Below are positions 4,595 to 24,731 of a stretch of 64,000 bases of DNA, in pieces. The stretch comes from Streptomyces antimycoticus. Lineage in GTDB: Bacteria; Actinomycetota; Actinomycetes; Streptomycetales; Streptomycetaceae. Numbering within the stretch: position 1 is the first letter of the stretch; every line of letters begins with the position of its first letter. The position numbers and the translations under genes were made by a program. The DNA is taken from NCBI RefSeq assembly GCF_005405925.1, contig NZ_BJHV01000001.1, forward strand, positions 620,001 through 684,000. Reading direction: 5' to 3'. The notes under the pieces were generated by a model. That model was given only the letters and a program-made list of their open reading frames with translations, did not search any database and was not told the origin of the DNA.

Positions 4595-6646
4595 TCAGGG
4601 GCGTGGCGCCGTTTGCACGGTGAGTGGCTCATGGCTGGTGACATCGCCGGAGCCGCGGCGGGTGAAGCGCATGGCGACACAGGCACCCGCGTACAGCACC
4701 GCCACGACCAGCAGCAGCGCCTGATAGCCCGTGAGCAGGGCCAGATACTCCAGGGTGCCGCCGAACAGGGAGCCCAGCAGGTTGGCGCCGAAGGCCGCCG
4801 TGGGGTCGGAGGTCGCCGCCAGCCGGTCGGAGAAGATGAGGTTGGCGCAGAAGATGGGGGCGAAGGCCAGCGCGATCGCGGCGGCCAGCCGGGGGGCGAA
4901 GGGCAGCCCCAGCACCAGATGGGACGGGATCAGCCAGGCGATCGCGAGGCTGGCGAAGAGCATCAGCTGCAGCACGAGCTGATTGACCCGGCGCAGCCTG
5001 CGCCGCACCTCCACCGCGCACAGCACGGCGACCAGCACCCCCGCGAAGACCATGGCGTTGACCAGCCAGGTGGTGCCGAAATAGAGGGCGAAGCCGATCA
5101 CGTTCTTGGTCTCCAGCAGCATGAACGCCGCGCCGAGCAGGAACATGTCCACATAGCGGGCGGTACGCCGCAGCCGGACCCCGGTCAGCCGTACCGACAC
5201 CAGGGTCACCAGCAGGATCGCTCCCAGGACCCCGATGTAGAGGGTGGGGATGGTGCGGTGCAGCAGATACGGGAACGGATGGTCGTCGCTGGCGGCCGAG
5301 GGCACCGGGCCCGAGGGGCGCCAGGCGGAGGCGGTGCAGGACTGGTCGCTCGAGGTGACACCCGCCACCAGGATGGCCGCCTTCTTGCCTCCGTAGTGGG
5401 TGATGCAGGGGGCGTGTCCGAAGACGGAGGTGAGCGTGGAGCCGAACCGGTCGATGAGCCAGTTCTGCCGGTAGTAGTTGTACATGGCGAACGCACCGCC
5501 GGGGGCGAGGTGGCGGTGTGCCGCCTCGAATGCCTGCCGGGTGAACAGATAGCTCTCCAGGCGCAGGTTGCTCGCGCCCGACACCAGGGTCAGGGAGTCC
5601 GGCAGGGCGAGGACGACCAGGTCGTAGCGGGTCTTGGTGCGTTCGAGGAAGGCCCGGCCGTCGTTGATGTGCACGTGCACCCGGGGGTTGGCGTAGGGCC
5701 GGGCCGGATGCAGTGACGCACCGATCTCCTGCAGCCGGGGGTCGATCTCCACCGCGTCCACCCGCTGGGCGCCGTTGGCCAGCGCCATCGCCACGTCGTT
5801 GCCGTTGCCGGCGCCGATGACCAGCACCCGGCGGTGGGAGTTCCTCGGGGTTTCGCGGTAGGGCTGCTCGTACGGGGAGCCGGGCCGCCCGAGCACCTTC
5901 AGCGGGGCGATGGACTGATGCGGTACGCCATTGGCGGAGATCTTGTAGTCCCGGCTGCCGGTGGTCGGCCTGGTCACCTCGATCTTGTAGTACGGGGACC
6001 AGGAGATGCCGCTGGCCGCCGTCTCCAGCGCCAGGACGCCCACCATCAAGGCGAGCGGGACCGCATACCGGATGCTGTTGCGGCGGCCGCCGAGGGTCAG
6101 CAAGGCCACCGCGGCGAGCACGCCCCACACCACCGACGGTGCGCGCAGCCAGGAGAGCAGCGCGAAGGACACCGAACCGGTGAGCGAGCCCAGCAGGTCG
6201 TAGCGGTACGCCTCCAGCGAGGGCAGCTGACGGAACTGATCCGCCGTCATCTTCCCGATCGCCATCATGATCAGCGCGGTCAGTCCGAAGAGCACCGGCA
6301 GGGTCACCCACTGGGGCAGACCGGTGGTCTTCACGGCGGTGAAGTAGATGACCTCGCCGCTGGTCTGCCGCACCTGCACGGGGAACTCGCGCACCAGGAC
6401 GACGAGAACGGCGAGCGGGATGGGCGCCCAGCGGGTGAGCCACTGCCCGCGGCCGGCGGGCATGAGGAATCCCAGGCCGATCCCGAGGAACGAGCCCAAG
6501 AGGATGAAGTTCGAGAAATAGCTCAGATGGACGATATTGGCGCCGGTCCACCGGATCAGCGCGAGCTCGACGAAGAGCATGGTGGCGCTGGCCAGCAGCA
6601 GCCTCGCGCGCACGTTTTGCGGTCCTGGGCTGTGCTCCATGTCGGC
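4595..6646 (-). CDS. Polytopic membrane protein with spermidine-synthase-like domain
   Basis: 683 residues from a GTG at 6646 (GGA 7 nt upstream; an ATG two codons further in at 6640 is the alternative). About six hydrophobic segments (15-235) precede a cytosolic Rossmann domain with the nucleotide-binding loop VLVIGAGNGNDVA near residue 270 and acidic VEIDPRL, followed by several more membrane segments (about 480-660). This arrangement is that of the membrane-embedded spermidine synthase/SpeE-like family, whose aminopropyltransferase activity is mostly untested. No SpeD or other polyamine gene is adjacent, so the substrate is unknown. Confidence 0.82.
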   Translation of the reverse strand, partial: ADMEHSPGPQNVRARLLLASATMLFVELALIRWTGANIVHLSYFSNFILLGSFLGIGLGFLMPAGRGQWLTRWAPIPLAVLVVLVREFPVQVRQTSGEVIYFTAVKTTGLPQWVTLPVLFGLTALIMMAIGKMTADQFRQLPSLEAYRYDLLGSLTGSVSFALLSWLRAPSVVWGVLAAVALLTLGGRRNSIRYAVPLALMVGVLALETAASGISWSPYYKIEVTRPTTGSRDYKISANGVPHQSIAPLKVLGRPGSPYEQPYRETPRNSHRRVLVIGAGNGNDVAMALANGAQRVDAVEIDPRLQEIGASLHPARPYANPRVHVHINDGRAFLERTKTRYDLVVLALPDSLTLVSGASNLRLESYLFTRQAFEAAHRHLAPGGAFAMYNYYRQNWLIDRFGSTLTSVFGHAPCITHYGGKKAAILVAGVTSSDQSCTASAWRPSGPVPSAASDDHPFPYLLHRTIPTLYIGVLGAILLVTLVSVRLTGVRLRRTARYVDMFLLGAAFMLLETKNVIGFALYFGTTWLVNAMVFAGVLVAVLCAVEVRRRLRRVNQLVLQLMLFASLAIAWLIPSHLVLGLPFAPRLAAAIALAFAPIFCANLIFSDRLAATSDPTAAFGANLLGSLFGGTLEYLALLTGYQALLLVVAVLYAGACVAMRFTRRGSGDVTSHEPLTVQTAPRP

Positions 6647-15615: not shown

Positions 15616-16130
15616 CTATTCCCCCGGCTCCAGCACATACAGCTCCGGCAGGTTGACCACGATGGCCTCCTGGGTGCTGCGGGCGATGACCACCACCGCC
15701 TCGTCGTCGGGGTCCGGGTTCTCCTCCCGGTGCGGCACAAACGGCGGAACGAAGATGTAGTCACCCGGGCGGGTGCGCAACCGGACCTCCTCGACACGTC
15801 CGTCCCGCTCCTCGGCGAAGACGAACTCGGGGTGGCCCCGCACCACGAAGATGGCCGTCTCGGACTCGCCGTGGTGGTGGTTTGCGGAGGCGGTGTCCGG
15901 CGCCACATGCGTCTGGCCCATCCAGAGCCGCTCGGACCCCACCGACTGACCGCTGATCGCGGCGAACCGCCGCATGCCCTCGGTCTGGGCGGTGCCGGGG
16001 TCGACGTCCTCGGTGCGGATGTGGTGCAGCCGCATCCGCAACGGACTGTCGGGGCGGTGGCCTTCAGATCCTTCAGATGCGGATGGAACGCGTCGTGCTG
16101 CTGCGCGGGGTCGCCGCCGGGCGTCGTCAT
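15616..16130 (-). pseudogene. Cupin-domain protein, frameshifted in this sequence
   Basis: Reading from ATG 16130 gives a natural N-terminus (MTTPGGDPAQQHDAFHPHL), then the frame breaks; the conserved part (MRLHHIRTEDVDPG onward) continues one frame over to 15616. One extra base in the GGGG run at 16051-16054 joins them as KATAPDSPLRM and makes 516 bp (171 residues). The cupin core shows metal ligands HHHGESE and PFVPHREENP. The function may be a small-molecule dioxygenase or sensor; not assignable. It has its own promoter facing Rrf2, so Rrf2 control is likely. If the break is real, a short form from ATG 16035 would still keep the cupin. Confidence 0.75.
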
Positions 16131-16137
16131 GACACCG

Positions 16138-16167
16138 ACCGTAGAAAGCCCGGGTAATGGATGTCAA
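16138..16167 (-). promoter_or_regulatory. Promoter of the cupin gene (leaderless type)
   Basis: On the minus strand, TTGACA (16162-16167) and TACGGT (16138-16143) are separated by 18 bp, and the cupin ATG at 16130 lies 7 bp after the -10 box, so transcription probably starts at the ATG. Directly upstream of the -35 box is GGACACCTG, which shares AGGTGTCC with the operator-like palindrome at 17604. Confidence 0.55.
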
Positions 16168-16226
16168 CAGGTGTCCTTTCTCCCACCAGGCACAACACCA
16201 TGAAATCCACGTTGCATAATGGCCGT

Positions 16227-16637
16227 ATGCAGATCTCGGCGAAGGCGGACTACGCGGTCCGGGCGCTGGCGGAGCTGGCCGCGGACCCGGGCAGGCCACT
16301 CACCTGTGAGGCGATAGCCACCTCCCAGGACATCCCCTTCCGGTTCCTCAAGGGGGTCTTCCGGGATCTGCGCCAGGCCGGTCTGGTGCGCAGTCAGCGC
16401 GGCTGCGAGGGTGGCTACTGGCTGGCTCGCGACCCCGCCGAGGTGACCCTCGCGGACATCGTGCTCGCCGTGGACGGGGCGTTCCTGACGCTGCGCGGCG
16501 AGCGGCTGGACGACCTCGGCTACCACGGCCCGGCGGCCGGACTGCCCGGGGTGTGGCGCGGGATGGAGGACCATGTGCGCCAGGTGCTGACCTCCACCGC
16601 CCTGAGCGATCTGGTCCGCGAGCGGCTGGCGGCATGA
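16227..16637 (+). CDS. Rrf2-family transcriptional regulator
   Basis: 136 residues beginning MQISAKADYAVRALAEL, the typical Rrf2 opening. The winged helix covers about 1-80 (QDIPFRFLKGVFRDLRQAG, then QRGCEGGYWLA). Rrf2 sensors such as IscR, NsrR and RsrR ligate an Fe-S cluster through three cysteines near residue 90-110. Here that region has none (two Cys lie earlier, at CEAIA and GCEGG), so it resembles the cluster-free members, which include the cysteine regulator CymR. A CATAAT box ends 6 bases before the ATG, implying a leaderless mRNA. It overlaps the next gene by ATGA. Confidence 0.87.
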   Translation: MQISAKADYAVRALAELAADPGRPLTCEAIATSQDIPFRFLKGVFRDLRQAGLVRSQRGCEGGYWLARDPAEVTLADIVLAVDGAFLTLRGERLDDLGYHGPAAGLPGVWRGMEDHVRQVLTSTALSDLVRERLAA

Positions 16638-17569
16638 CGCCCGCGAGCCCGGACCGGCCCCGGAGCACCGAGGCGGACGGCCGCGGGGCCGTCGAGATCG
16701 TGGAGTACACCGATCCGGCCTGCCCGTGGGCCTGGGGTTCCGAGCCCGCGTTCCGCCACCTGCGGGCCCTCACCGCGGGGCGGGCCCACTGGCGCCGGGT
16801 GTTCGGCATCCTCTTCGACGACGGCGACGACCCGGCGCCGGATCCCGCGGCCGAGACCGCCTGGTACAGCCGCTATATCGCCGATATCGCCCGCCATACA
16901 CGGGCGCCCTACGCCCACCGGCTGCGCTGGGTGGCGGCCACCAGCCGGCCGGCCTCGCTCGCCGCGAAGGCGGCCGAGCGGCAGGGCGCGATCGCCGCGG
17001 AGCGGGTGCTGCGACGGCTGCGCGAGACCACGTTCGTACTGGGCACTCCGGCCGATACGGCGGAGCGGGTGCTCGATGCCCTGGCGGGGCTCGACGGTGT
17101 CGATGTCGAGCGGCTGGGCACGGAGATGGGCGAGCCGTCGGTGGTGGCGGCCGTCCGGCAGGACCACGCCGAGGCCCGCGACCCGATCCCGGAGGCGCAT
17201 GCCTTCCGCGCCCCGGGACCGCATGGCACGGGCGTCAAGGAAACCGACGACGGGGTGCGCTACGCGCTGCCCACGCTGGTGTTCTCCGGCCCCGGCGGGC
17301 GCGTGACCGCCCCGGGGTGGCGGAGCATGGCCGAGTACACGGCCGCGCTGCGCACGGTGGCTCCCGGCCATCTCTGGCAGGCGGCCCTCATCGGCCCCGA
17401 GGAGGCCCTGGCGGAGCACCGCAGCCTGACCGGGCCCGACCTGTCACTGCTGACGGGCCGGACCACTCCCCCACCTGCGGCCGTACAGGTGGAGACGGCG
17501 GGCGGGCCGCTGTGGCTGCATCCGGACGAGGCCGCCACCCATCCGGTGCTCGCCGCCCGTCAGGGCTGA
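16634..17569 (+). CDS. DsbA/FrnE-like thioredoxin-fold protein
   Basis: 311 residues, translationally coupled to the Rrf2 gene. The active-site region is EYTDPACPWAWGSEPAFRHL (about 25-44), aligned with the FDxxCPWCW of DsbA/FrnE proteins, but the second cysteine is replaced by Ala (CPWA). That leaves a one-cysteine site, as in glutathione-transferase-kappa-like or HCCA-isomerase-like members, not a disulfide oxidoreductase. A helical insert and a second short domain (LPTLVFSGPGGRVTAPG) follow. There is no signal peptide, so it is cytosolic. The operon with Rrf2 suggests a redox or thiol stress role. Confidence 0.82.
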   Translation: MTPASPDRPRSTEADGRGAVEIVEYTDPACPWAWGSEPAFRHLRALTAGRAHWRRVFGILFDDGDDPAPDPAAETAWYSRYIADIARHTRAPYAHRLRWVAATSRPASLAAKAAERQGAIAAERVLRRLRETTFVLGTPADTAERVLDALAGLDGVDVERLGTEMGEPSVVAAVRQDHAEARDPIPEAHAFRAPGPHGTGVKETDDGVRYALPTLVFSGPGGRVTAPGWRSMAEYTAALRTVAPGHLWQAALIGPEEALAEHRSLTGPDLSLLTGRTTPPPAAVQVETAGGPLWLHPDEAATHPVLAARQG

Positions 17570-17603
17570 AAATCCCCAGGTCGTTAGCCGTCTTACCCGA
17601 TGA

Positions 17604-17619
17604 GACACCTAAAGGTGTC
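17604..17619. promoter_or_regulatory. 16-bp palindromic operator-like site
   Basis: GACACCT-AA-AGGTGTC, perfect arms of 7 bp, immediately upstream of TTGACT (17622-17627), a possible -35 box. With a weak CACCAT at 17646-17651 as the -10, transcription would begin near the leader peptide ATG at 17658. Placed to act as a repressor or activator site for the operon that follows. Confidence 0.5.
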
Positions 17620-17657
17620 CATTGACTTCGCCGACCCTCGCCCCGCACCATGGGCAC

Positions 17658-17732
17658 ATGCTGACGACGCACCCCGGTGTGGTGTGCCGATACGTGGACT
17701 TCCGGCGCACCGCCAGCGCCATCTGTCGCTGA
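17658..17732 (+). CDS. Leader peptide (24 aa) of the sulfur-type ABC operon
   Basis: An ATG-to-TGA frame of 24 codons ending CRYVDFRRTASAICR. The pattern R-x-V-D-x-x-R-x-x-S-A-x-C-R at the C-terminus is that of the short peptides annotated as putative leader peptides in many actinobacterial genomes, typically upstream of sulfur assimilation or cysteine-linked operons. Such peptides are thought to report cysteinyl-tRNA supply through ribosome stalling. This one lies 217 bp upstream of the transporter genes and seems to start at or very near the transcription start. It has two Cys codons, at 17685-17687 and third from the stop. Confidence 0.72.
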   Translation: MLTTHPGVVCRYVDFRRTASAICR

Positions 17733-17742
17733 TCGCCCCTTT

Positions 17743-17768
17743 CGCCGACGCGATCCGCCGACGCGATC
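17743..17768. repeat. 13-bp tandem duplication in the leader region
   Basis: CGCCGACGCGATC occurs twice head to tail just downstream of the leader peptide stop. It may contribute to alternative RNA pairing in the leader, but no clear terminator/antiterminator pair was found in 17733-17949. Confidence 0.6.
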
Positions 17769-17949
17769 TGCCACGTCCCGAGCGCCTTGTGCCGCTCGTT
17801 TTCCCTCGCTTTCCTCCCCGGGCCCCACCGCCTCCGGCCCTCATGACCGCTGCCCGTCCGCGTGTCCTCGCTGACGTTTGCGGACGTGTACGGCCGTGTG
17901 CTCATCGCCGTCCGGGGGCAGTTGACACCACGAAAGGCGACGTCCCGTC

Positions 17950-19527
17950 ATGACTTCCGCCGCCCCGCCCTTCCCCGTCCGCCGTCCGCCCGATCCGCCA
18001 CCGCGCCTCGCCCCGGACCGGCGCTCCGTGCTCGGGCTCGCACTGGGGGCGGGTGGCTCCCTGCTGCTGTCCGCCTGTGGCGGGGTGGCGACGACCGGGG
18101 CGGGCGGCGGGGGCGAGACCCTGCGCTGGGGCTGGGATCTGCCCTCCAGCTGGGACCCGGTGTTCTCCTCCAAGGGCTGGGACGTCCATCTGCTGTCGCT
18201 CGTCTACTCCGGGCTCACCCAACTCGACGCCAAGGGCGGCGCCAAGCCCGCGCTCGCCTCCTCCTGGCGCTACTCCCACGACGGGCGGCGCCTCACCTTC
18301 ACCCTCCGCCGTGGCCTGCGGTTCGCCGACGGCACCCCGGTGAACGCCGAGGCCGTCAAGAAGAGCCTCGAGCGCGGCAAGAACCACCCCAAGTCCCTGA
18401 TCGCCTCCCAACTGACCAGCATCGACACGGTACGGGCCCCCGACGCGCACACCGTCGTCCTCGAACTCACCGAGGCCGACTACCAGTTGCCGGCACTCCT
18501 GGCCGGGAAGACCGGCATGGTGGTCAGCCCCACCGCGTTCGGGAAGGACGAGGCGCGGCTGGCCACCGGACCGGTCGGCCACGGCCCGTTCCGGCTGGTG
18601 TCCTACACCCAGAACTCAATGGCGAGCCTGCGCCGCGACCCCGGCTACTGGAACGCCGAACACATCGCCGTCGAGCGCTTCGAGGCGTATCCGAAGCCCG
18701 ATGAGACCACGGCGCTCGCCGCGCTGCAGTCCGGGCGGCTCAATGTGGCCCAGATCCCGTTCAGCCAGGTCGAGGCGGCGCGCGAGGCCGGTTTCACGGT
18801 GCAGCTCATCCCGTCGATGGTGGTGCGCGTCCTGGATGTGAACACCGCCATGAAGCCCTTCGACGACCCCGCCGTCCTCAGGGCCCTGAAGTACGCCGTG
18901 GACCGCCAAGCCCTGCTGGACAGCGAGCAGTTCGGCCATGGCGAGGTGGACCACCAGCCCTTCCCGCCCGGCTATACGGGTTTCGACCCGTCGCTCGGCG
19001 CGGTGTACCGGCACGACCCGGAGCGGGCGCGCGCACTGCTGCGGGAGGCCGGGTACCACGACGGCGTCGAGGTGACCATCACCACCGCCCAACCGCAGGG
19101 CGCGCCCGAGCAGTTGCAGGCGCAGCTCAACCGGGCCGGGTTCCGGGCCAGGATCGAGGTCATCCCGGAGGCGCGGGCGTCCCAGGTGGTGTACGTCCAG
19201 CACTCCCGCGCCCTGTACCTCGACCAGTTCGCCGGACGGGAGTCGCCGGTCCAGGCGATGCAGGTGCTCTTCGGCGCGGAGGGGCTGATGAACCCCTCCC
19301 GCCGTACGACGCCCGAACTGGACGCGGCGGTGGCCGCGGTGCGCCGCACCCCGCTGGAGTCGCCGCGCTATCCGCAGGTGCTGCGGGCGGCCACCGCGGT
19401 GGCGGTGCGCACGATGCCGAATGTGTTCCTCTACACGGTGCCGCGCGCCCTCGCCCGTACGTCCTCCGTCTCCGCCATCCCCTCGCTCCCGGTGGTGCAG
19501 CGGTTCGAGGGGGTGACGGCCGGATGA
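17950..19527 (+). CDS. ABC transporter substrate-binding lipoprotein (SBP family 5)
   Basis: 525 residues. It has a twin-arginine/lipobox leader (DRRSVLGLALGAGGSLLLSAC, lipid-bearing Cys at 43), then the SBP_bac_5 fold used for peptides, nickel and glutathione-type ligands (YSGLTQLDAKGG, LRRGLRFADGTPVNAE, the family's characteristic segment). It is the first structural gene of a six-gene unit and overlaps the next gene by ATGA. The leader peptide upstream and the flavin monooxygenase at the end suggest an organosulfur ligand, which is an inference. Confidence 0.93.
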   Translation: MTSAAPPFPVRRPPDPPPRLAPDRRSVLGLALGAGGSLLLSACGGVATTGAGGGGETLRWGWDLPSSWDPVFSSKGWDVHLLSLVYSGLTQLDAKGGAKPALASSWRYSHDGRRLTFTLRRGLRFADGTPVNAEAVKKSLERGKNHPKSLIASQLTSIDTVRAPDAHTVVLELTEADYQLPALLAGKTGMVVSPTAFGKDEARLATGPVGHGPFRLVSYTQNSMASLRRDPGYWNAEHIAVERFEAYPKPDETTALAALQSGRLNVAQIPFSQVEAAREAGFTVQLIPSMVVRVLDVNTAMKPFDDPAVLRALKYAVDRQALLDSEQFGHGEVDHQPFPPGYTGFDPSLGAVYRHDPERARALLREAGYHDGVEVTITTAQPQGAPEQLQAQLNRAGFRARIEVIPEARASQVVYVQHSRALYLDQFAGRESPVQAMQVLFGAEGLMNPSRRTTPELDAAVAAVRRTPLESPRYPQVLRAATAVAVRTMPNVFLYTVPRALARTSSVSAIPSLPVVQRFEGVTAG

Positions 19528-20543
19528 CCGCGCTCGCTCCGCACGTCGCGGGCACGCGGCGGAAGCCCGTGCGGGCGGGCCGTGTCCCGCGCTCGCTCGG
19601 CCGTGTCCTCGCCACGGCGGGCACGGTCTTCCTGCTGTCCTCCGCGCTCACCTTCGGTCTCGGCGCACTCTCCGGGGCGAATCCGGCGGCGGCGGTGCTC
19701 GGCGAGACGGCGACGCCCGCCGACATCGCCCGGATGAACCGCCAGTTCGGCCTCGACCGGCCGCTGTGGGAGCAGTACGTGTCCTGGCTGGGGCATGCCT
19801 TCACCGGGGACCTGGGCCGCTCGTGGTTCACCACGGTCCCGGTGGCCGACAGCATCCGGCAGGCGATGCCGGTGGACCTGTCCATCGCGGGGCTCGCGCT
19901 GCTGATGGCGGTGGTGCTGGGCGGAGCCGCCGGTGTGTCCGCCGCCCTCCGGGCCGGCGGACGGCTGGACCGCGCCGTCACCGCGCTGTGCGCGCTGCTC
20001 GGTACCCTGCCCGGTTTCGTCGTGGCCATCGCGCTGGTCACGGTGTTCTCGCTGAAGCTGGGGTGGCTGCCGTCCGGCGGCTATGTGCCACTGGACATGG
20101 ACCCCGCGCAGTGGCTGCGGTACACCGTGATGCCCGCGCTCGCACTGAGCCTGGAGGCCGCTGCCGCCATCGCCCGTCAGCTGCGCACCTCGCTGGTGGG
20201 GACGTTGCGGGAGAACTATGTGACGGGCGCGGTGATGCGCGGACTGCCCGCCCGGCGGGTGGTGTTCGGCCACGCCCTGCGCAACGCCGCCGGACCGGCG
20301 CTGACGGCGCTCGGGATGAGCGTGCCGATGCTGCTCGGCGGTGCGGTGGTCACCCAGCAGATCTTCGCGCTGCCCGGTCTCGCCCAGCTCACCCTGCAGT
20401 CGGCGGAGCAGCACGACATCCCGGTCATCCAGGGGACGCTGCTGGTGACCATCGCGGTGGTCCTGGTCGTCAACGTGGCCGTCAACGCGGCGCTGCTCGC
20501 GCTGAATCCGGCCGCCCGGCGCCGGGAGGTGACGCGCCCATGA
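19524..20543 (+). CDS. ABC transporter permease, DppB type
   Basis: 339 residues, about six membrane helices. The inner-membrane-component signature region (RENYVTGAVMRGLPARRVVFGHALRNA, EAA loop) that docks on the ATPase is at about 230-258. The N-terminal part has the usual DppB-type extracytoplasmic segment (ADIARMNRQFGLDRPLWEQY). It forms the channel with the next permease. Overlaps with both neighbours (ATGA) show tight co-translation. Confidence 0.93.
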   Translation: MTALAPHVAGTRRKPVRAGRVPRSLGRVLATAGTVFLLSSALTFGLGALSGANPAAAVLGETATPADIARMNRQFGLDRPLWEQYVSWLGHAFTGDLGRSWFTTVPVADSIRQAMPVDLSIAGLALLMAVVLGGAAGVSAALRAGGRLDRAVTALCALLGTLPGFVVAIALVTVFSLKLGWLPSGGYVPLDMDPAQWLRYTVMPALALSLEAAAAIARQLRTSLVGTLRENYVTGAVMRGLPARRVVFGHALRNAAGPALTALGMSVPMLLGGAVVTQQIFALPGLAQLTLQSAEQHDIPVIQGTLLVTIAVVLVVNVAVNAALLALNPAARRREVTRP

Positions 20544-21463
20544 GGACGTTGCGACGGGCATGGGGACATCCCTCCGCCAAGGTGGCGCTGCTGGTGCTGC
20601 TGGCCATCGCGCTGCTGGCGGCGTTCGGCGGCCGGCTCGCGCCGCATGACCCGCTGGCCCAGCACCCCCGGAACATGCTGCGCGGCCCCGGCCCCGGCCA
20701 TCTTCTGGGCACCGACTATCTGGGCCGCGATGTGCTCAGCCGACTGCTGGAGGGCAGTGGCCGCTCGGTGGCGGGCGCCGTGGAGGCGGTGGCCGCCGCG
20801 ATGGCGGTGGGGGTGCCGACTGGGCTGGCCTCGCTGTGGATGGGGCGGGTGGGCGAGTGGATCGCACAGCGTGCCGTCGACGCGCTGATGACGCTGCCGT
20901 TCACCGTGTTCGCCATCGCGGTCGTGGGCGCGCTGGGCAACGGGATGCACCAGGCCATGCTGGCGCTCGGGGTGCTCTACGCCCCGCTGTTCTTCCGAAT
21001 GACCCGCGCCGCCGCGCTGAGCCTGCGGCATGCCCAGTACGTGGAGTCGGCCGAGCTGTTCGGCGCTTCGGTCGGGCGGGTGCTGCGCACCCACATCTGG
21101 AGCAAGGTCCTGCCGACGGTCATCGTCACCGCCGCCCACGCGCTGGCCACCTGTCTGCTGGTGGTCTCCTCGCTGACCTTCCTCGGGGTCGGTGTGCAGC
21201 CCCCCGCCGCCACCTGGGGCGGCATGCTCGCCACCGATCTGGGCTTCCTCACCCAGCAGATCTGGGCACCGGTGTTCCCGGCCGCCCTGATCGTCATCAC
21301 CGCCGGCGCGCTCAACCTGCTGGCCGATGCCGTACGGGACGCCGGGGCGGACGAGTTGCTGCCCGGCGGCGCACCGGATCCGGCCACCGGCTCCCCAGGC
21401 GCCACCGCCGACACCCCCGACACCACCAAGGAGCAGGCCGATGCCGCACTCCCCGCCGTCTGA
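20540..21463 (+). CDS. ABC transporter permease, DppC type
   Basis: 307 residues. The N-terminal helix is followed by the DppC-type linker (GPGPGHLLGTDYLGRDVLSR), a diagnostic feature of this subfamily, and five more helices with the EAA loop (AQYVESAELFGASVGRVLRTH). It pairs with the DppB-type permease. The C-terminal 30 residues are Ala/Pro/Asp-rich and hydrophilic. It overlaps the following ATPase gene by 23 bp. Confidence 0.93.
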   Translation: MRTLRRAWGHPSAKVALLVLLAIALLAAFGGRLAPHDPLAQHPRNMLRGPGPGHLLGTDYLGRDVLSRLLEGSGRSVAGAVEAVAAAMAVGVPTGLASLWMGRVGEWIAQRAVDALMTLPFTVFAIAVVGALGNGMHQAMLALGVLYAPLFFRMTRAAALSLRHAQYVESAELFGASVGRVLRTHIWSKVLPTVIVTAAHALATCLLVVSSLTFLGVGVQPPAATWGGMLATDLGFLTQQIWAPVFPAALIVITAGALNLLADAVRDAGADELLPGGAPDPATGSPGATADTPDTTKEQADAALPAV

Positions 21464-22508
21464 CCCCGCCACGCCCGACGGCCCCGGCGCCCTGGGCCAA
21501 CGGCCCGCTGCGCTGGCGGTCGAGGGGCTCGGCGTCACGGTCGCGTCCGGACGGCTGACGGCCGTACGCGATGTGTCGTTCACCGTGGGCCGCGGTGAGG
21601 CCGTCGGCCTGGTCGGCGAGTCCGGCAGCGGCAAAACCCTCATCTGCCGGTCGGTGCTCGGACTGCTGCCGCCGGGCTGCGCGGTGTCCGAGGGCGAGAT
21701 CGCCCTGTCCGGTGAGGCGCTGACCGGGCTGTCGCGCCGGGAGTGGGACCGCGTACGGGGCACCCGGGTGGGCGCCGTCTTCCAGGATCCCGCCTCGTAT
21801 CTCAACCCCGCGCTGACCGTGGGCCGTCAGCTGACCGAGGTGCTGAGGGTGAAGTTGGGTCTGGACCGCGCGCGGGCCGCTGAGCGGGCCGTCGAGCTGT
21901 TCGCCGCCGTCGGGTTGCACGACCCCGCCGAGGTCGCCCGGCGCCATCCGCACGAGCTGTCCGGCGGGATGCTGCAGCGTGTGCTGATCGCCGTGGCGGT
22001 GGCCTGCGCCCCGGATCTGCTGGTGGCCGACGAGGCGACCACCGCGCTGGATGTGGTGGTCCAGGCCGAGGTCCTGGAGTTGCTGGCCCGGATGCGCGCC
22101 GAGCAGGATCTGGCGCTGCTGCTGGTCAGCCACGATCTGGCGGTGATCGCCGAGGTGTGCGACCGGATCCTGGTGGCGTACGCCGGGGAGCTGGTCGAGG
22201 ACGGCCCGGCCGAGCGGGTGCTCAACGATCCCCTGCATCCGTACACCGAGGCGCTGTTGCGCGTGGCCACGGTCGGCGACTGGGAGCGGCGGGAGCTGGA
22301 GGTGATCCCCGGCGCGCCGCCCGAGGTGGGCGCGCGGCTGCCGGGCTGCCGGTTCGCCGACCGCTGCGCGTTCGCCGCGCCCGAGTGCCGCAGCGGTCCG
22401 GTGCCGCTGCGGGAGACGGCCGACGGGCGGCGGGTGCGGTGTGTCCGCGGCGAGGAGATCGAGCGGTCGCGGGCCGGGGCGTTCGGCACCCGGGAGGTGG
22501 CGGTATGA
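21441..22508 (+). CDS. ABC transporter ATP-binding protein, DppD type
   Basis: 355 residues from ATG 21441 (AAGGAG 7 nt upstream, inside the previous gene). Walker A GESGSGKTL, Q-loop FQDPASYLNP, signature LSGGMLQRV (a common variant of LSGGQ in this subfamily), Walker B LLVADEATTALD and H-loop SHDL are all present. The C-terminal oligopeptide/dipeptide-transporter domain has the cysteine cluster GCRFADRCAFAAPEC, a possible Fe-S or Zn site typical of DppD/OppD. Confidence 0.94.
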   Translation: MPHSPPSDPATPDGPGALGQRPAALAVEGLGVTVASGRLTAVRDVSFTVGRGEAVGLVGESGSGKTLICRSVLGLLPPGCAVSEGEIALSGEALTGLSRREWDRVRGTRVGAVFQDPASYLNPALTVGRQLTEVLRVKLGLDRARAAERAVELFAAVGLHDPAEVARRHPHELSGGMLQRVLIAVAVACAPDLLVADEATTALDVVVQAEVLELLARMRAEQDLALLLVSHDLAVIAEVCDRILVAYAGELVEDGPAERVLNDPLHPYTEALLRVATVGDWERRELEVIPGAPPEVGARLPGCRFADRCAFAAPECRSGPVPLRETADGRRVRCVRGEEIERSRAGAFGTREVAV

Positions 22509-23557
22509 GTGGGCTGCTGGAGCTCTCCGGCCTGACCGTGGCCTTCGGCCGGCGGGACGCGCGGCCGGTGCTGGACGGGGTGGAGCTGTCCGTGGCCGAG
22601 GGGGAGATCGTCGGGGTCATCGGGGAGACCGGCTCCGGCAAGACCACGCTGGCCCGTACGGCCGTGGGCCTGGTCCCTCCGCGCTCGGGGCGGGTGGTCT
22701 TCGACGGGCGCGAGATCTCCGGGCTCCGGGGGCGATCGCTGCGGGCGTTCCGCCGTTCGGGGCGGTTGAGCTACGCGTTCCAGGATCCGCTGCGGGCTCT
22801 GGACCCGGAGCTGACGGTCCGGCGGGCGGTGGCCGAACCGCTCGCCGTCGCGGGGGATCTCGGCGATGCGGAGATCGCCGCACGGGTGGACGAGGCGCTG
22901 GAGACGGTGGGCCTGGACGCGGCGCGCCTCGGCGACCGGCTGCCGGGCGCGATCTCCGGCGGTCAGCGCCAGCGGGTGCTGCTCGCGCGGGCGATCGTCA
23001 CCCGGCCCCGGCTGCTGATCGCCGATGAGCCGGTGAGCGCCCTGGACGCCTCCAACCGCAACCGGGTGCTGCGGCTGCTGGACCGGCTGCGCACCGAGCG
23101 CGGGATGGCCGTCGTCGTCATCTCGCACGACCTCAGCTCGCTGGCGGGCATCGCCGACCGGGTGGCGGTGCTCTATCGCGGCCGGGTGGTGGAACAGGGG
23201 CCCGTACGGGAGGTGTTCGGCCGGCCGCTGCATCCGTACACCGCGCTGCTCATCGCCTCCGCGCCGAGCGTACGGGCCGGGGACGGACCGGGCGCGGCAG
23301 CGCTGCGCCCGTCGGCCGAACCGCCCGCCTGGACGGCGCGGGAGGGCTGTGTCTTCGGCCACCGCTGCCCGTTCGTCATCGGCTCCTGCCGCACCGCGCC
23401 CGCGCCGGCCCCGGTGGGCCAGGGGCGCACCGCCGCCTGCCACCGGGTTCCCCAGTGGCGTGAGCTGGTGGCCGGGGCGACTCCCCCGGTCACCGCGAAA
23501 GGGCCGCCGGAGCTGGTGGCGGCCGCCGGAGAAACAGACAAGGAAGCCGGGCGGTGA
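22505..23557 (+). CDS. ABC transporter ATP-binding protein, DppF type
   Basis: 350 residues. Walker A GETGSGKTTL, Q-loop FQDPLRALDP, signature ISGGQRQRV, Walker B LLIADEPVSALD and H-loop SHDL. The C-terminal oligopeptide domain carries GCVFGHRCPFVIGSC. It is the second ATPase of a heterodimeric motor, overlapping the first by ATGA. A small gap (43 bp) separates it from the monooxygenase gene. Confidence 0.94.
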   Translation: MSGLLELSGLTVAFGRRDARPVLDGVELSVAEGEIVGVIGETGSGKTTLARTAVGLVPPRSGRVVFDGREISGLRGRSLRAFRRSGRLSYAFQDPLRALDPELTVRRAVAEPLAVAGDLGDAEIAARVDEALETVGLDAARLGDRLPGAISGGQRQRVLLARAIVTRPRLLIADEPVSALDASNRNRVLRLLDRLRTERGMAVVVISHDLSSLAGIADRVAVLYRGRVVEQGPVREVFGRPLHPYTALLIASAPSVRAGDGPGAAALRPSAEPPAWTAREGCVFGHRCPFVIGSCRTAPAPAPVGQGRTAACHRVPQWRELVAGATPPVTAKGPPELVAAAGETDKEAGR

Positions 23558-23600
23558 CCATCCCCCCGGCCGCTTCCCGCCCCTCGGAGAAAGGCTGACG

Positions 23601-24731
23601 ATGTCCGTCGAGTTCATCGGAATGATCGGCACCCATGAGGTGTCCGAGATCCACCCCGCCCGTGGCCCCGTCGTGGACGCCGAGTACACCCTGCGGTTCG
23701 CCCGCGCCCATGAGGACGCGGGCTTCGACCGGGTGCTGATCGGCTATGGCTCCGCCACCCCGGACGGCGCCCAGGTGGCCGCGTATGTCGCCGCGCGCAC
23801 CGAGCGGCTCGGGCTGCTGGTGGCCCATCGGCCCGGCTTCGTGGCCCCCACCCTGGCCGCCCGTACGTTCGCCACCCTCGACCAGTTCTCCGGCGGACGG
23901 GTGGCCGTGCACATCATCAGCGGCGGGCGCGACGCCGAGCAGCGGCGGGACGGCGACTATCTGGGCAAGGACGACCGTTACGCCCGCACGGATGAGTATC
24001 TGGAGATCCTGAAGCGGGCGTGGACGGATGAGGAGCCGTTCGGACACGACGGCCGCTTCTACCGCTTCGAGGACTTCCACGCCGAGGTCCGCCCCCATCA
24101 GCGGCCGCGCATCCCCCTGTACTTCGGGGGCTCCTCCGAGGCGGCGTACACCGTGGGCGGCAGGCACGCGGACACCTTCGCGCTGTGGGGTGAGCCGCTG
24201 GCGGAGACGGCGGAGCAGATCGCCTCCGTGCACCGGGCCGCCAAAGCCGCGGGCCGGACCGAGCCGCCCGGTATCAGCGTGTCCTTCCGGCCCATCCTCG
24301 GCGCGACCGAGGAGCAGGCGTGGGAGCGGGCGCACCGGATCCTCGACACCATCAGGGCCCATGGCCCGGCGGGCTCCTTCACCTCCTCCCGGTGGGGCCG
24401 CGAGGCGCTCGGCTCACCCACGACCGGGGGCACCGACCCGCAGAACGTCGGCTCCCAGCGGCTGCTGGCCGCCGCCGCCCGGGGTGAGCTCCACGACCGG
24501 GCGCTGTGGACGGCGACCGCGGCCGCCACCGGGGCCGCCGGGAACTCCACGGCGCTGGTCGGCACCCCGGAGACGGTCGCGAAGGCACTGCTGGACTATG
24601 TGGACATCGGTGTCACGACCCTGCTGATCCGTGGTTACGACCCGCTGGACGACGCCGTCGGCTACGGCCGTGAGCTGCTGCCGCTGGTCCGCCAGGAGCT
24701 GGCCCACCGGGCCGGTGGGGGCGCCGCGTAA
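23601..24731 (+). CDS. SsuD-like FMN-dependent (LLM class) monooxygenase
   Basis: 376 residues, bacterial-luciferase fold. GRVAVHIISGGRDAEQRRDG and RIPLYFGGSSEAAY correspond to the SsuD segments NLVTGSD and PPLYFGGSS, placing it close to alkanesulfonate monooxygenase, which releases sulfite from organosulfonates using FMNH2 and O2. No FMN reductase (ssuE) is adjacent, so reduced flavin must come from elsewhere. Placement after a complete importer and a cysteine-type leader peptide indicates import and desulfurisation of an organosulfur compound. AAAGG ribosome site. Confidence 0.88.
   Translation: MSVEFIGMIGTHEVSEIHPARGPVVDAEYTLRFARAHEDAGFDRVLIGYGSATPDGAQVAAYVAARTERLGLLVAHRPGFVAPTLAARTFATLDQFSGGRVAVHIISGGRDAEQRRDGDYLGKDDRYARTDEYLEILKRAWTDEEPFGHDGRFYRFEDFHAEVRPHQRPRIPLYFGGSSEAAYTVGGRHADTFALWGEPLAETAEQIASVHRAAKAAGRTEPPGISVSFRPILGATEEQAWERAHRILDTIRAHGPAGSFTSSRWGREALGSPTTGGTDPQNVGSQRLLAAAARGELHDRALWTATAAATGAAGNSTALVGTPETVAKALLDYVDIGVTTLLIRGYDPLDDAVGYGRELLPLVRQELAHRAGGGAA

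Follow-up and report, generated by a model that had tools for sequence, protein, structure and literature searches.

A conserved Cys-type leader and a linked Rrf2-family gene mark a probable organosulfur-scavenging regulon in Streptomyces antimycoticus

We have found a control cassette in a 64,000-nucleotide (nt) stretch of the Streptomyces antimycoticus genome (contig NZ_BJHV01000001.1, positions 620,001 to 684,000; hereafter the window). A DNA dyad, a predicted promoter -35 element and a 24-codon leader frame follow one another ahead of five importer genes and a flavin monooxygenase gene, and a gene for an Rrf2-family regulator lies upstream. The genes probably belong to an Rrf2- and leader-controlled organosulfur-scavenging regulon, and on comparative grounds we consider it likely that the window locus is one branch of a small regulon of this kind with two layers of sulfur control. 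The anatomy of the cassette is conserved among relatives with near-fixed spacing, it co-occurs with the Rrf2 gene, and its sister copies stand ahead of organosulfur-type genes. The cassette is a new form of known Cys-leader control, set apart by its dyad, its Rrf2 lineage and a leader conserved over most of its length. The host genome measures 11.17 Mb; among titled records, S. endocoffeicus, S. iranensis and S. sabulosicollis have the cassettes closest to those found here.

The exact pattern GACACCNNNNGGTGTCCATTGAC was sought in 84,980 species genomes and found at 96 loci, some genomes giving several. Seventy-eight of the 80 title-bearing loci belong to Streptomyces, Kitasatospora or Actinacidiphila, and the other two are labelled just 'Actinobacteria' or 'Actinomycetes bacterium'. 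At 91 of the 96 a leader ATG lies 37-41 nt past the palindrome and opens a frame of 24 residues (88 loci), 23 (two) or 25 (one); in this comparison the 24-codon frame that an earlier note, made from the sequence alone, had picked out at 17658-17732 proved to be conserved. The remaining five loci comprise one truncated locus end, one changed stop, one frameshift after a like start and two diverged leaders. Residues V8, C10, R11, V13, D14, R17, T18, S20 and C23 are invariant in all 88 leaders of 24 residues, which thus carry Cys at 10 and 23, and 28 of them have an additional Cys at 19. Across 73 distinct leader DNAs the codons vary (four each for R11 and A21, three for T18, two each for D14 and R17), yet S20 AGC, C23 TGT and the TGA stop are fixed in 73/73; the peptide and, towards the leader end, the nucleotides too therefore seem to be under constraint. 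The ratio of nonsynonymous to synonymous variation (pN/pS) is 0.34, with kinship of the sequences ignored. The cassette features are as follows.

17598..17626 (+): extended dyad, candidate operator, consensus cAATGAGACACC-N4-GGTGTCCATTGAC; core palindrome 17604-17619
17622..17651 (+): predicted promoter; -35 TTGACT 17622-17627, 18-nt spacer, weak -10 CACCAT 17646-17651
17658..17732 (+): 24-codon leader MLTTHPGVVCRYVDFRRTASAICR, then a stop codon

The core dyad, GACACCT-AA-AGGTGTC, has two 7-base arms around a central AA. It is the 16-bp palindrome of the earlier note, present at the place given in the list but imperfect, with 14 of its 16 bases symmetric. The 16-mer has no other exact match in the window and occurs exactly at two places in the 11.2-Mb genome. 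Imperfect outer arms extend it to about 27 bp, roughly the length of the dyads that Rrf2 proteins bind. CATTGAC, which contains the -35 element, follows directly, and the dyad joined to CATTGAC, with at most two mismatches, was counted at 33 sites across 30 of the 295 Streptomyces genomes searched, compared with one site for a reversed control pattern. A generic promoter scan of the locus gave no promoter; the distance from the -35 element to the ATG is near-fixed in relatives. The transcript is predicted to begin at or adjoining the leader ATG and so to look leaderless, which would put the dyad at about -54 to -39, a position compatible with either an activator or a repressor. A single GACACC half-site is found at window positions 16131-16136, ahead of rrf2.

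The genes upstream of the dyad are listed below.

15616..16053 (-): cupin-domain protein (PF07883; start approximate), divergent from rrf2
16161..16637 (+): Rrf2-family regulator (PF02082, 110 bits), candidate binder of the dyad
16631..17569 (+): DsbA/thioredoxin-like protein (PF13743, 34.6 bits), a conserved neighbour

Rrf2 and DsbA-like genes both precede the cassette at 66 of the 96 loci, and at 13 more a DsbA-like gene is seen before the locus ends. Neither is seen at 17, of which nine have less than 1.7 kb of upstream sequence and eight have more and are apparently unlinked; these counts leave aside four extra motif loci. Among the 295 Streptomyces genomes, the motif occurs in 30 of 34 that bear the Rrf2 gene and in none of the 261 others. 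Bearing the gene was defined as a match of at least 157.9 bits and at least 60% identity, the next match having 142.3 bits and 57%; since this cut was set after the list had been viewed, the Fisher value of the co-occurrence is descriptive only. Three of the four Rrf2-bearing genomes without the motif have a leader behind a worn palindrome, and the fourth, G279, has none in the stretch read (G and L numbers are our handles for genomes and loci). The cupin gene adjoins most rrf2-linked cassettes, and also related monooxygenases in G073 and G088. The S. antimycoticus genome encodes a second Rrf2 paralogue (G000:C1:1762563-1762961, 55% identity).

Iron-sulfur regulators of the Rrf2 family (IscR, NsrR, RirA) have three conserved Cys, as published abstracts state for NsrR and RirA. 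The window protein, whose real start may be an internal ATG at residue 23, has just two (C49 and C82) and hence no Cys triad. It resembles CymR in its Rrf2 domain, in lacking a C-terminal Cys triad and in its tie to sulfur genes, and differs in its score on the CymR model NF047409 (69.2 bits against an equivalog cut-off of 195).

The genes behind the sister cassettes make the sulfur role well supported at the level of gene content, since they encode organosulfur-type enzymes. A second exact cassette lies 9.8 Mb away in the same genome (L046 2224-6345), with the leader MHSTHPGVLCRYVDYLRTSSALCR at the same 38-nt distance, ahead of three genes, which encode an SfnB-like acyl-CoA-dehydrogenase-like protein, a hydrolase of the alpha/beta type and a luciferase-like monooxygenase. 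For the dehydrogenase the best NCBIfam model is SfnB TIGR04022, at 108 bits against a cut-off of 430.9. The two cassettes look like the split of a single operon, since in L099 importer, SfnB-like, SsuD-like and hydrolase genes stand together behind a single cassette. We surveyed first genes with 17 query proteins, taking matches within 900 nt past the motif at the 96 loci. The first match is a peptide-type substrate-binding protein (SBP) at 70 and an organosulfur-type oxidoreductase at 13, and 13 loci are too short. The 13 oxidoreductases comprise five weak matches (26-28%) to LLM3 of L053, four SsuD-like proteins, two SfnB-like, one other monooxygenase and one BisC-like, the last at L171, whose leader has diverged. 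A protein of L093 with the same weak LLM3 match falls by score in the NtaA/DmoA family (461 bits, cut-off 279.7); that scan covered the L093 protein, and the five weak-match first genes are known from the LLM3 match alone. The L093 operon, of the common type, encodes the importer, two monooxygenases (this one of the NtaA/DmoA family and one that is TIGR04027-like), a hydrolase and an SsuE that exceeds the TIGR03567 cut-off of 164.05 (217.1 bits), as does the SsuE at L218 in the S. antimycoticus genome (222.8 bits). In G010 (L097) a motif with CGTTGAC, outside the 96, is followed by an FMN-reductase-like protein.

The leader core HPGVVCRYVDFRRTSSALC is found further in four of 14 searched genomes of another family of the same order (G074, G077, G082 and G085). 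There a diverged dyad (GACAYY-N5-GTATC) and ATTGACAG lie ahead of the leader, which has CC and a tail at its end, and an SBP gene comes next. A DsbA-like gene precedes the leader in the three of these genomes whose upstream stretch was read. The clusters carry additional monooxygenases, and L051, the one scanned, encodes a BisC-like molybdopterin S/N-oxide reductase (937 bits against a subfamily cut-off of 1017.55). The earlier note's proposal of a sulfur-scavenging unit behind a cysteine-type leader thus finds comparative support in the leader family and in the SsuE, NtaA-type, SfnB-like and BisC-like genes; it made no mention of rrf2, of the gene for the DsbA-like protein or of the second cassette.

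Downstream of the leader the window operon reads as follows.

17950..19527 (+): substrate-binding protein SBP_bac_5 (PF00496, 227 bits; top Protein Data Bank match 1uqw YliB)
19524..20543 (+): permease, DppB/OppB type (PF00528, PF19300)
20540..21463 (+): permease, DppC/OppC type (PF00528, PF12911)
21441..22508 (+): ATPase, DppD/OppD type (PF00005, PF08352)
22505..23557 (+): ATPase, DppF/OppF type (PF00005, PF08352), ATGA overlap with the preceding gene; domain and model scans used the frame from 22502
23601..24731 (+): luciferase-like flavin monooxygenase, MsuD/SsuD relative (PF00296, 252 bits)

The SBP gene begins 217 nt past the leader stop. The importer genes (17950-23557) overlap, which supports one transcription unit, and a 43-nt gap separates them from the monooxygenase gene, so that the five contiguous ABC-type genes and adjoining monooxygenase of the earlier note are confirmed. 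With an SBP_bac_5 protein, two BPD_transp_1 permeases and two oligo_HPY-ended ATPases, the importer is of Dpp/Opp type. All five proteins score under the named Dpp, Opp, Gsi and Nik equivalog cut-offs (for the ATPases, among the best 25 matches), the best models for the SBP and permeases being of the GsiB, NikA and Opp1/2 families. The importer had been thought unusual for such a monooxygenase. A Dpp/Opp-type SBP comes first at 70 of the 96 cassettes, where this arrangement is the rule. A glutathione-like or peptide substrate, also suggested before, has nothing specific in its support; GsiB and YliB are the top SBP matches but far under cut-off, and we did not adopt it.

The importer seems to be an exchangeable part of the system, as related monooxygenases occur without it in G073, G088, L052 and L059-L062. 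G073 and G088 are distant genomes, and their enzymes, 66-75% identical to that of the window, occur in stretches of 16-19 kb that gave no match to a Dpp-type SBP or permease; the neighbour of the monooxygenase is a divergently encoded NMT1-type binding protein in G073 (L109/L054) and a BPD_transp_1 permease of unsettled type in G088 (L058).

The monooxygenase is a luciferase-like flavin enzyme by its PF00296 score (251.6 bits) and its flavin-stacking Trp, W196, present in 31/31 sequences. Among solved structures it comes closest to MsuD, at 181 bits (7jv3 and others), and to SsuD, at 135 bits. On the SsuD model TIGR03565 it scores 213 bits against an equivalog cut-off of 518.2, and the SsuD-like label of the earlier note holds for the family only. 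It shares with SsuD and MsuD the PF00296 family, the flavin mononucleotide (FMN) site residues R126 and Y127 and the stacking Trp (W195 in MsuD), and has Lys in place of MsuD H123. It lacks their R225 and R296/RGGA loop. According to the available part of PMC8234197, MsuD R225, R296 and W195 bind methanesulfonate, the RGGA loop is consensus, and R225A, R296A and W195A gave no measurable sulfite. What the window subfamily keeps invariant is V227, F229-R230-P231 and R344. The same genome encodes a further luciferase-like monooxygenase (L047 3025-5693, 43% identity), adjoining a protein whose start resembles an AMP-dependent ligase.

From these comparisons we infer a cysteine response acting at two levels. 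In the first, the upstream Rrf2 protein would bind the dyad beside the -35 element, and a cysteine-related signal would set transcription, as CymR does elsewhere; the sign of this control could be positive or negative. In the second, the transcript would begin at the leader ATG, and scarce Cys-tRNA would slow ribosomes at Cys10 and at Cys23, the penultimate codon. The shifted ribosome position might then let RNA polymerase or later ribosomes into the operon, possibly because it shields a C-rich stretch from Rho or exposes the start site that follows. A small organosulfur compound would enter through the importer and have its C-S bond cleaved by the monooxygenase, releasing sulfite for cysteine synthesis, with FMNH2 supplied by an SsuE-type reductase encoded elsewhere in the genome. 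Cys-responsive leaderless leaders are reported for mycobacteria in the available parts of PMC9031893 and PMC4633059, and the corresponding part of PMC8557817 describes a CymR-like Rrf2 protein of Rhodococcus IGTS8 seen only under organosulfur growth.

Several results weigh against the signal itself or against this two-layer reading. As to the signal, the bare 16-mer is not enriched once mismatches are allowed (two places in the window with up to three mismatches, where 3.1 were expected, and 25 in the S. antimycoticus genome with up to two, compared with 42 for the control); only the exact dyad with its -35 element is therefore informative, and the bare palindrome was dropped as a regulon marker. 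The co-occurrence of the Rrf2 gene and motif is largely physical linkage, although the cassettes lying 9.8 Mb (G000), 1.3 Mb (G143) and 15 kb (G010) away from rrf2, each in an Rrf2-bearing genome, are more independent evidence for the link. The two Cys codons of the leader are non-adjacent, whereas mycobacterial leaders have contiguous runs. MsuD R225 and R296 align to S226 and T310, with Arg there in 0/31 sequences; because these sulfonate-binding arginines are absent, the enzyme is, by alignment, not an alkanesulfonate monooxygenase proper but of a sister subfamily to SsuD/MsuD, and its substrate need not be an alkanesulfonate. The L052 and L059-L062 monooxygenases that lack this importer are 57-60% identical to that of the window. 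Finally, no conserved terminator or favoured fold emerged: terminators pass in two of 89 post-leader stretches (1.7 expected from shuffles), the 303-nt leader region has a folding z of 0.15 and is equalled or bettered by 55 of 100 shuffles, and for 26 leaders the comparison with synonymous recodings shows no gain in folding (mean z -0.17).

Two features lie between the leader and the SBP gene.

17733..17900 (+): C-rich, G-poor stretch 3' of the leader, at most suggestive of a Rho-entry region
17779..17798 (+): terminator-like hairpin CGAGCG-N8-CGCTCG, then TTTT

An attenuator built on the hairpin as an intrinsic terminator was rejected, the two passing stretches being what the shuffles predict. 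Its stem is kept in six close relatives (L048, L117, L130, L142, L150 and L166) despite a shifting distance to the leader, with the T-run mostly lost. The 200 nt past the leader have a mean C minus G of +0.21 (87 loci), compared with -0.10 ahead of rrf2 and +0.10 ahead of the cupin gene (65 loci); these controls are one intergenic stretch in two reading directions, and an additional control used random stretches, coding DNA included. With no conserved terminator and a C-rich stretch, Rho and translational coupling both fit, without a choice between them. The available part of PMC1262725 proposes Rho for terminator-less cys leaders and grades its prediction there as rather weak.

Among the alternatives to two-layer control by codon starvation and Rrf2, we would give a modest chance to the leader acting through its peptide, with cysteine or a sulfur metabolite causing the nascent THPGVxCRYVDxxRTxSAxCR to arrest the ribosome, in place of plain Cys-codon starvation. 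The nine invariant residues beyond Met1, the synonymous variation at R11 (four codons), D14, R17 and T18, the pN/pS value and the survival of HPGVVCRYVDFRRTSSALC in another family all fit such an arrest peptide. Selection on the peptide leaves unexplained the fixed AGC, TGT and TGA (73/73), and shared ancestry of the leaders lowers the weight of the residue counts. A bolder form, which we offer tentatively, is that the leader is a cysteine-sensing arrest peptide which, with the dyad-bound Rrf2, would make a portable two-signal sulfur switch over unlinked organosulfur operons in Streptomyces and relatives.

Somewhat less probable is a constraint on RNA or DNA, with a short hairpin, CAGCG-N8-CGCTG, that spans the final codons and the stop as the working element. 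Across the 73 distinct leaders this hairpin (hairpin 2) is paired in 99.7% of cells, and the AGC, TGT, CGC and TGA codons are invariant or nearly so. Covariation is almost nil, however (one C/T change in the outer pair), pairing is still 80% when the columns are shifted by -3, the recoding comparison given above shows no folding advantage, and in the other Cys leaders of the genome the ...GCGC....TGT end persists while the closing CGCT is missing. A second candidate, hairpin 1 (91% paired), was set aside because variation breaks its pairs in place of compensating them. The sole match in an Rfam scan was weak and irrelevant (Plant_SRP, 20.1 bits against 105).

We think it unlikely that the Rrf2/dyad layer controls the operon alone, with a leader translated to no regulatory effect: the dyad and Rrf2 gene do travel together, and no attenuator structure is conserved, yet a functionless frame would hardly hold on to its length, start, stop and nine residues in all 88 leaders, or to its core in another family. 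Least probable of all is an ordinary peptide or nickel importer beside the monooxygenase by chance, since the order of importer then monooxygenase(s) recurs in several lineages behind a Cys-type leader with SsuE, SfnB-like and BisC-like genes, even if the best SBP and permease models (GsiB, NikA, Opp1/2, all under cut-off) are of such types.

Other actinobacterial Cys leaders (NF042934 cis_reg_atten, NF042933 Ms5788A and the mycobacterial polycysteine short open reading frames, ORFs) are alike in their short frame, SAxCR Cys end and downstream sulfur genes; a leaderless transcript, predicted here from the -35 to ATG spacing, would be a further likeness. The window leader has the SAxCR-type end and the place upstream of sulfur-type genes of NF042934 ('putative leader peptide') but scores 19.2 bits on that NCBIfam model, under the cut-off of 27, as do two relatives' leaders (23.2 and 15.9), and it has two spaced Cys instead of a run. 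It differs from the known leaders also in being conserved over most of its length and tied to one dyad and one Rrf2 lineage, and from the mycobacterial polycysteine attenuators in having no contiguous Cys run. Polycysteine leaderless short ORFs of mycobacteria were reportedly the subject of Canestrari et al. (2020). That study is described in the available part of PMC9031893 as showing attenuation dependent on cysteine availability, and mycobacterial Cys-leader control is termed translation attenuation in that of PMC13236596. The available part of PMC8079986 gives eight S. lividans leaders, none for cysteine. In the open-licence literature, as far as its accessible text goes, Cys-ending leaders of actinobacteria are annotated and we found no test outside mycobacteria, nor did we find a printed account of this cassette there.

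The Pseudomonas sfn/msu system (SfnG, MsuC, MsuD, MsuE), as set out in the available part of PMC8234197, likewise combines several FMNH2 monooxygenases with an FMN reductase in stepwise C-S cleavage; that part describes no such leader, and the SfnB-like protein here reaches 108 bits against 431. The locus numbers of TIGR04027 and TIGR04028 (luciferase-like monooxygenase KPN_01858 and SBP KPN_01854) suggest a binding protein near a monooxygenase there too. The window proteins fall far under these models (47 against 468 and 22 against 413), and the second monooxygenase of L093 has 270 bits on TIGR04027, against 413.

The leader subfamily is unusually clean: its spacing is near-fixed, it goes with a single dyad and a single regulator lineage, and one genome has unlinked copies, so that codon, peptide, RNA and regulator hypotheses are separable by small reporters. 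The locus also points to a monooxygenase subfamily with an active site unlike that of SsuD/MsuD.

Five more Cys-type leaders in the S. antimycoticus genome (L218, L219, L220, L222 and L223) have the GCGC....TGT end. Behind that of L218 (core MKRQDLTRRRHVDLARVSSASCCCRA), SsuE (223 bits) starts 0.77 kb downstream, and the frame FAYWVPNVSGGLV in between looks like a monooxygenase start; a small protein and a PALP gene follow that of L222. Other Cys-type leader frames run from near 5467 (+) and 5535 (-) in L109 (G073). G197 (L105) lacks most of the operon and some of the DsbA-like gene, and the leader remains with a monooxygenase piece. In G143 (L213) the dyad and leader start are lost, so that the DsbA-like frame continues into the end of the leader, and the importer matches are partial.

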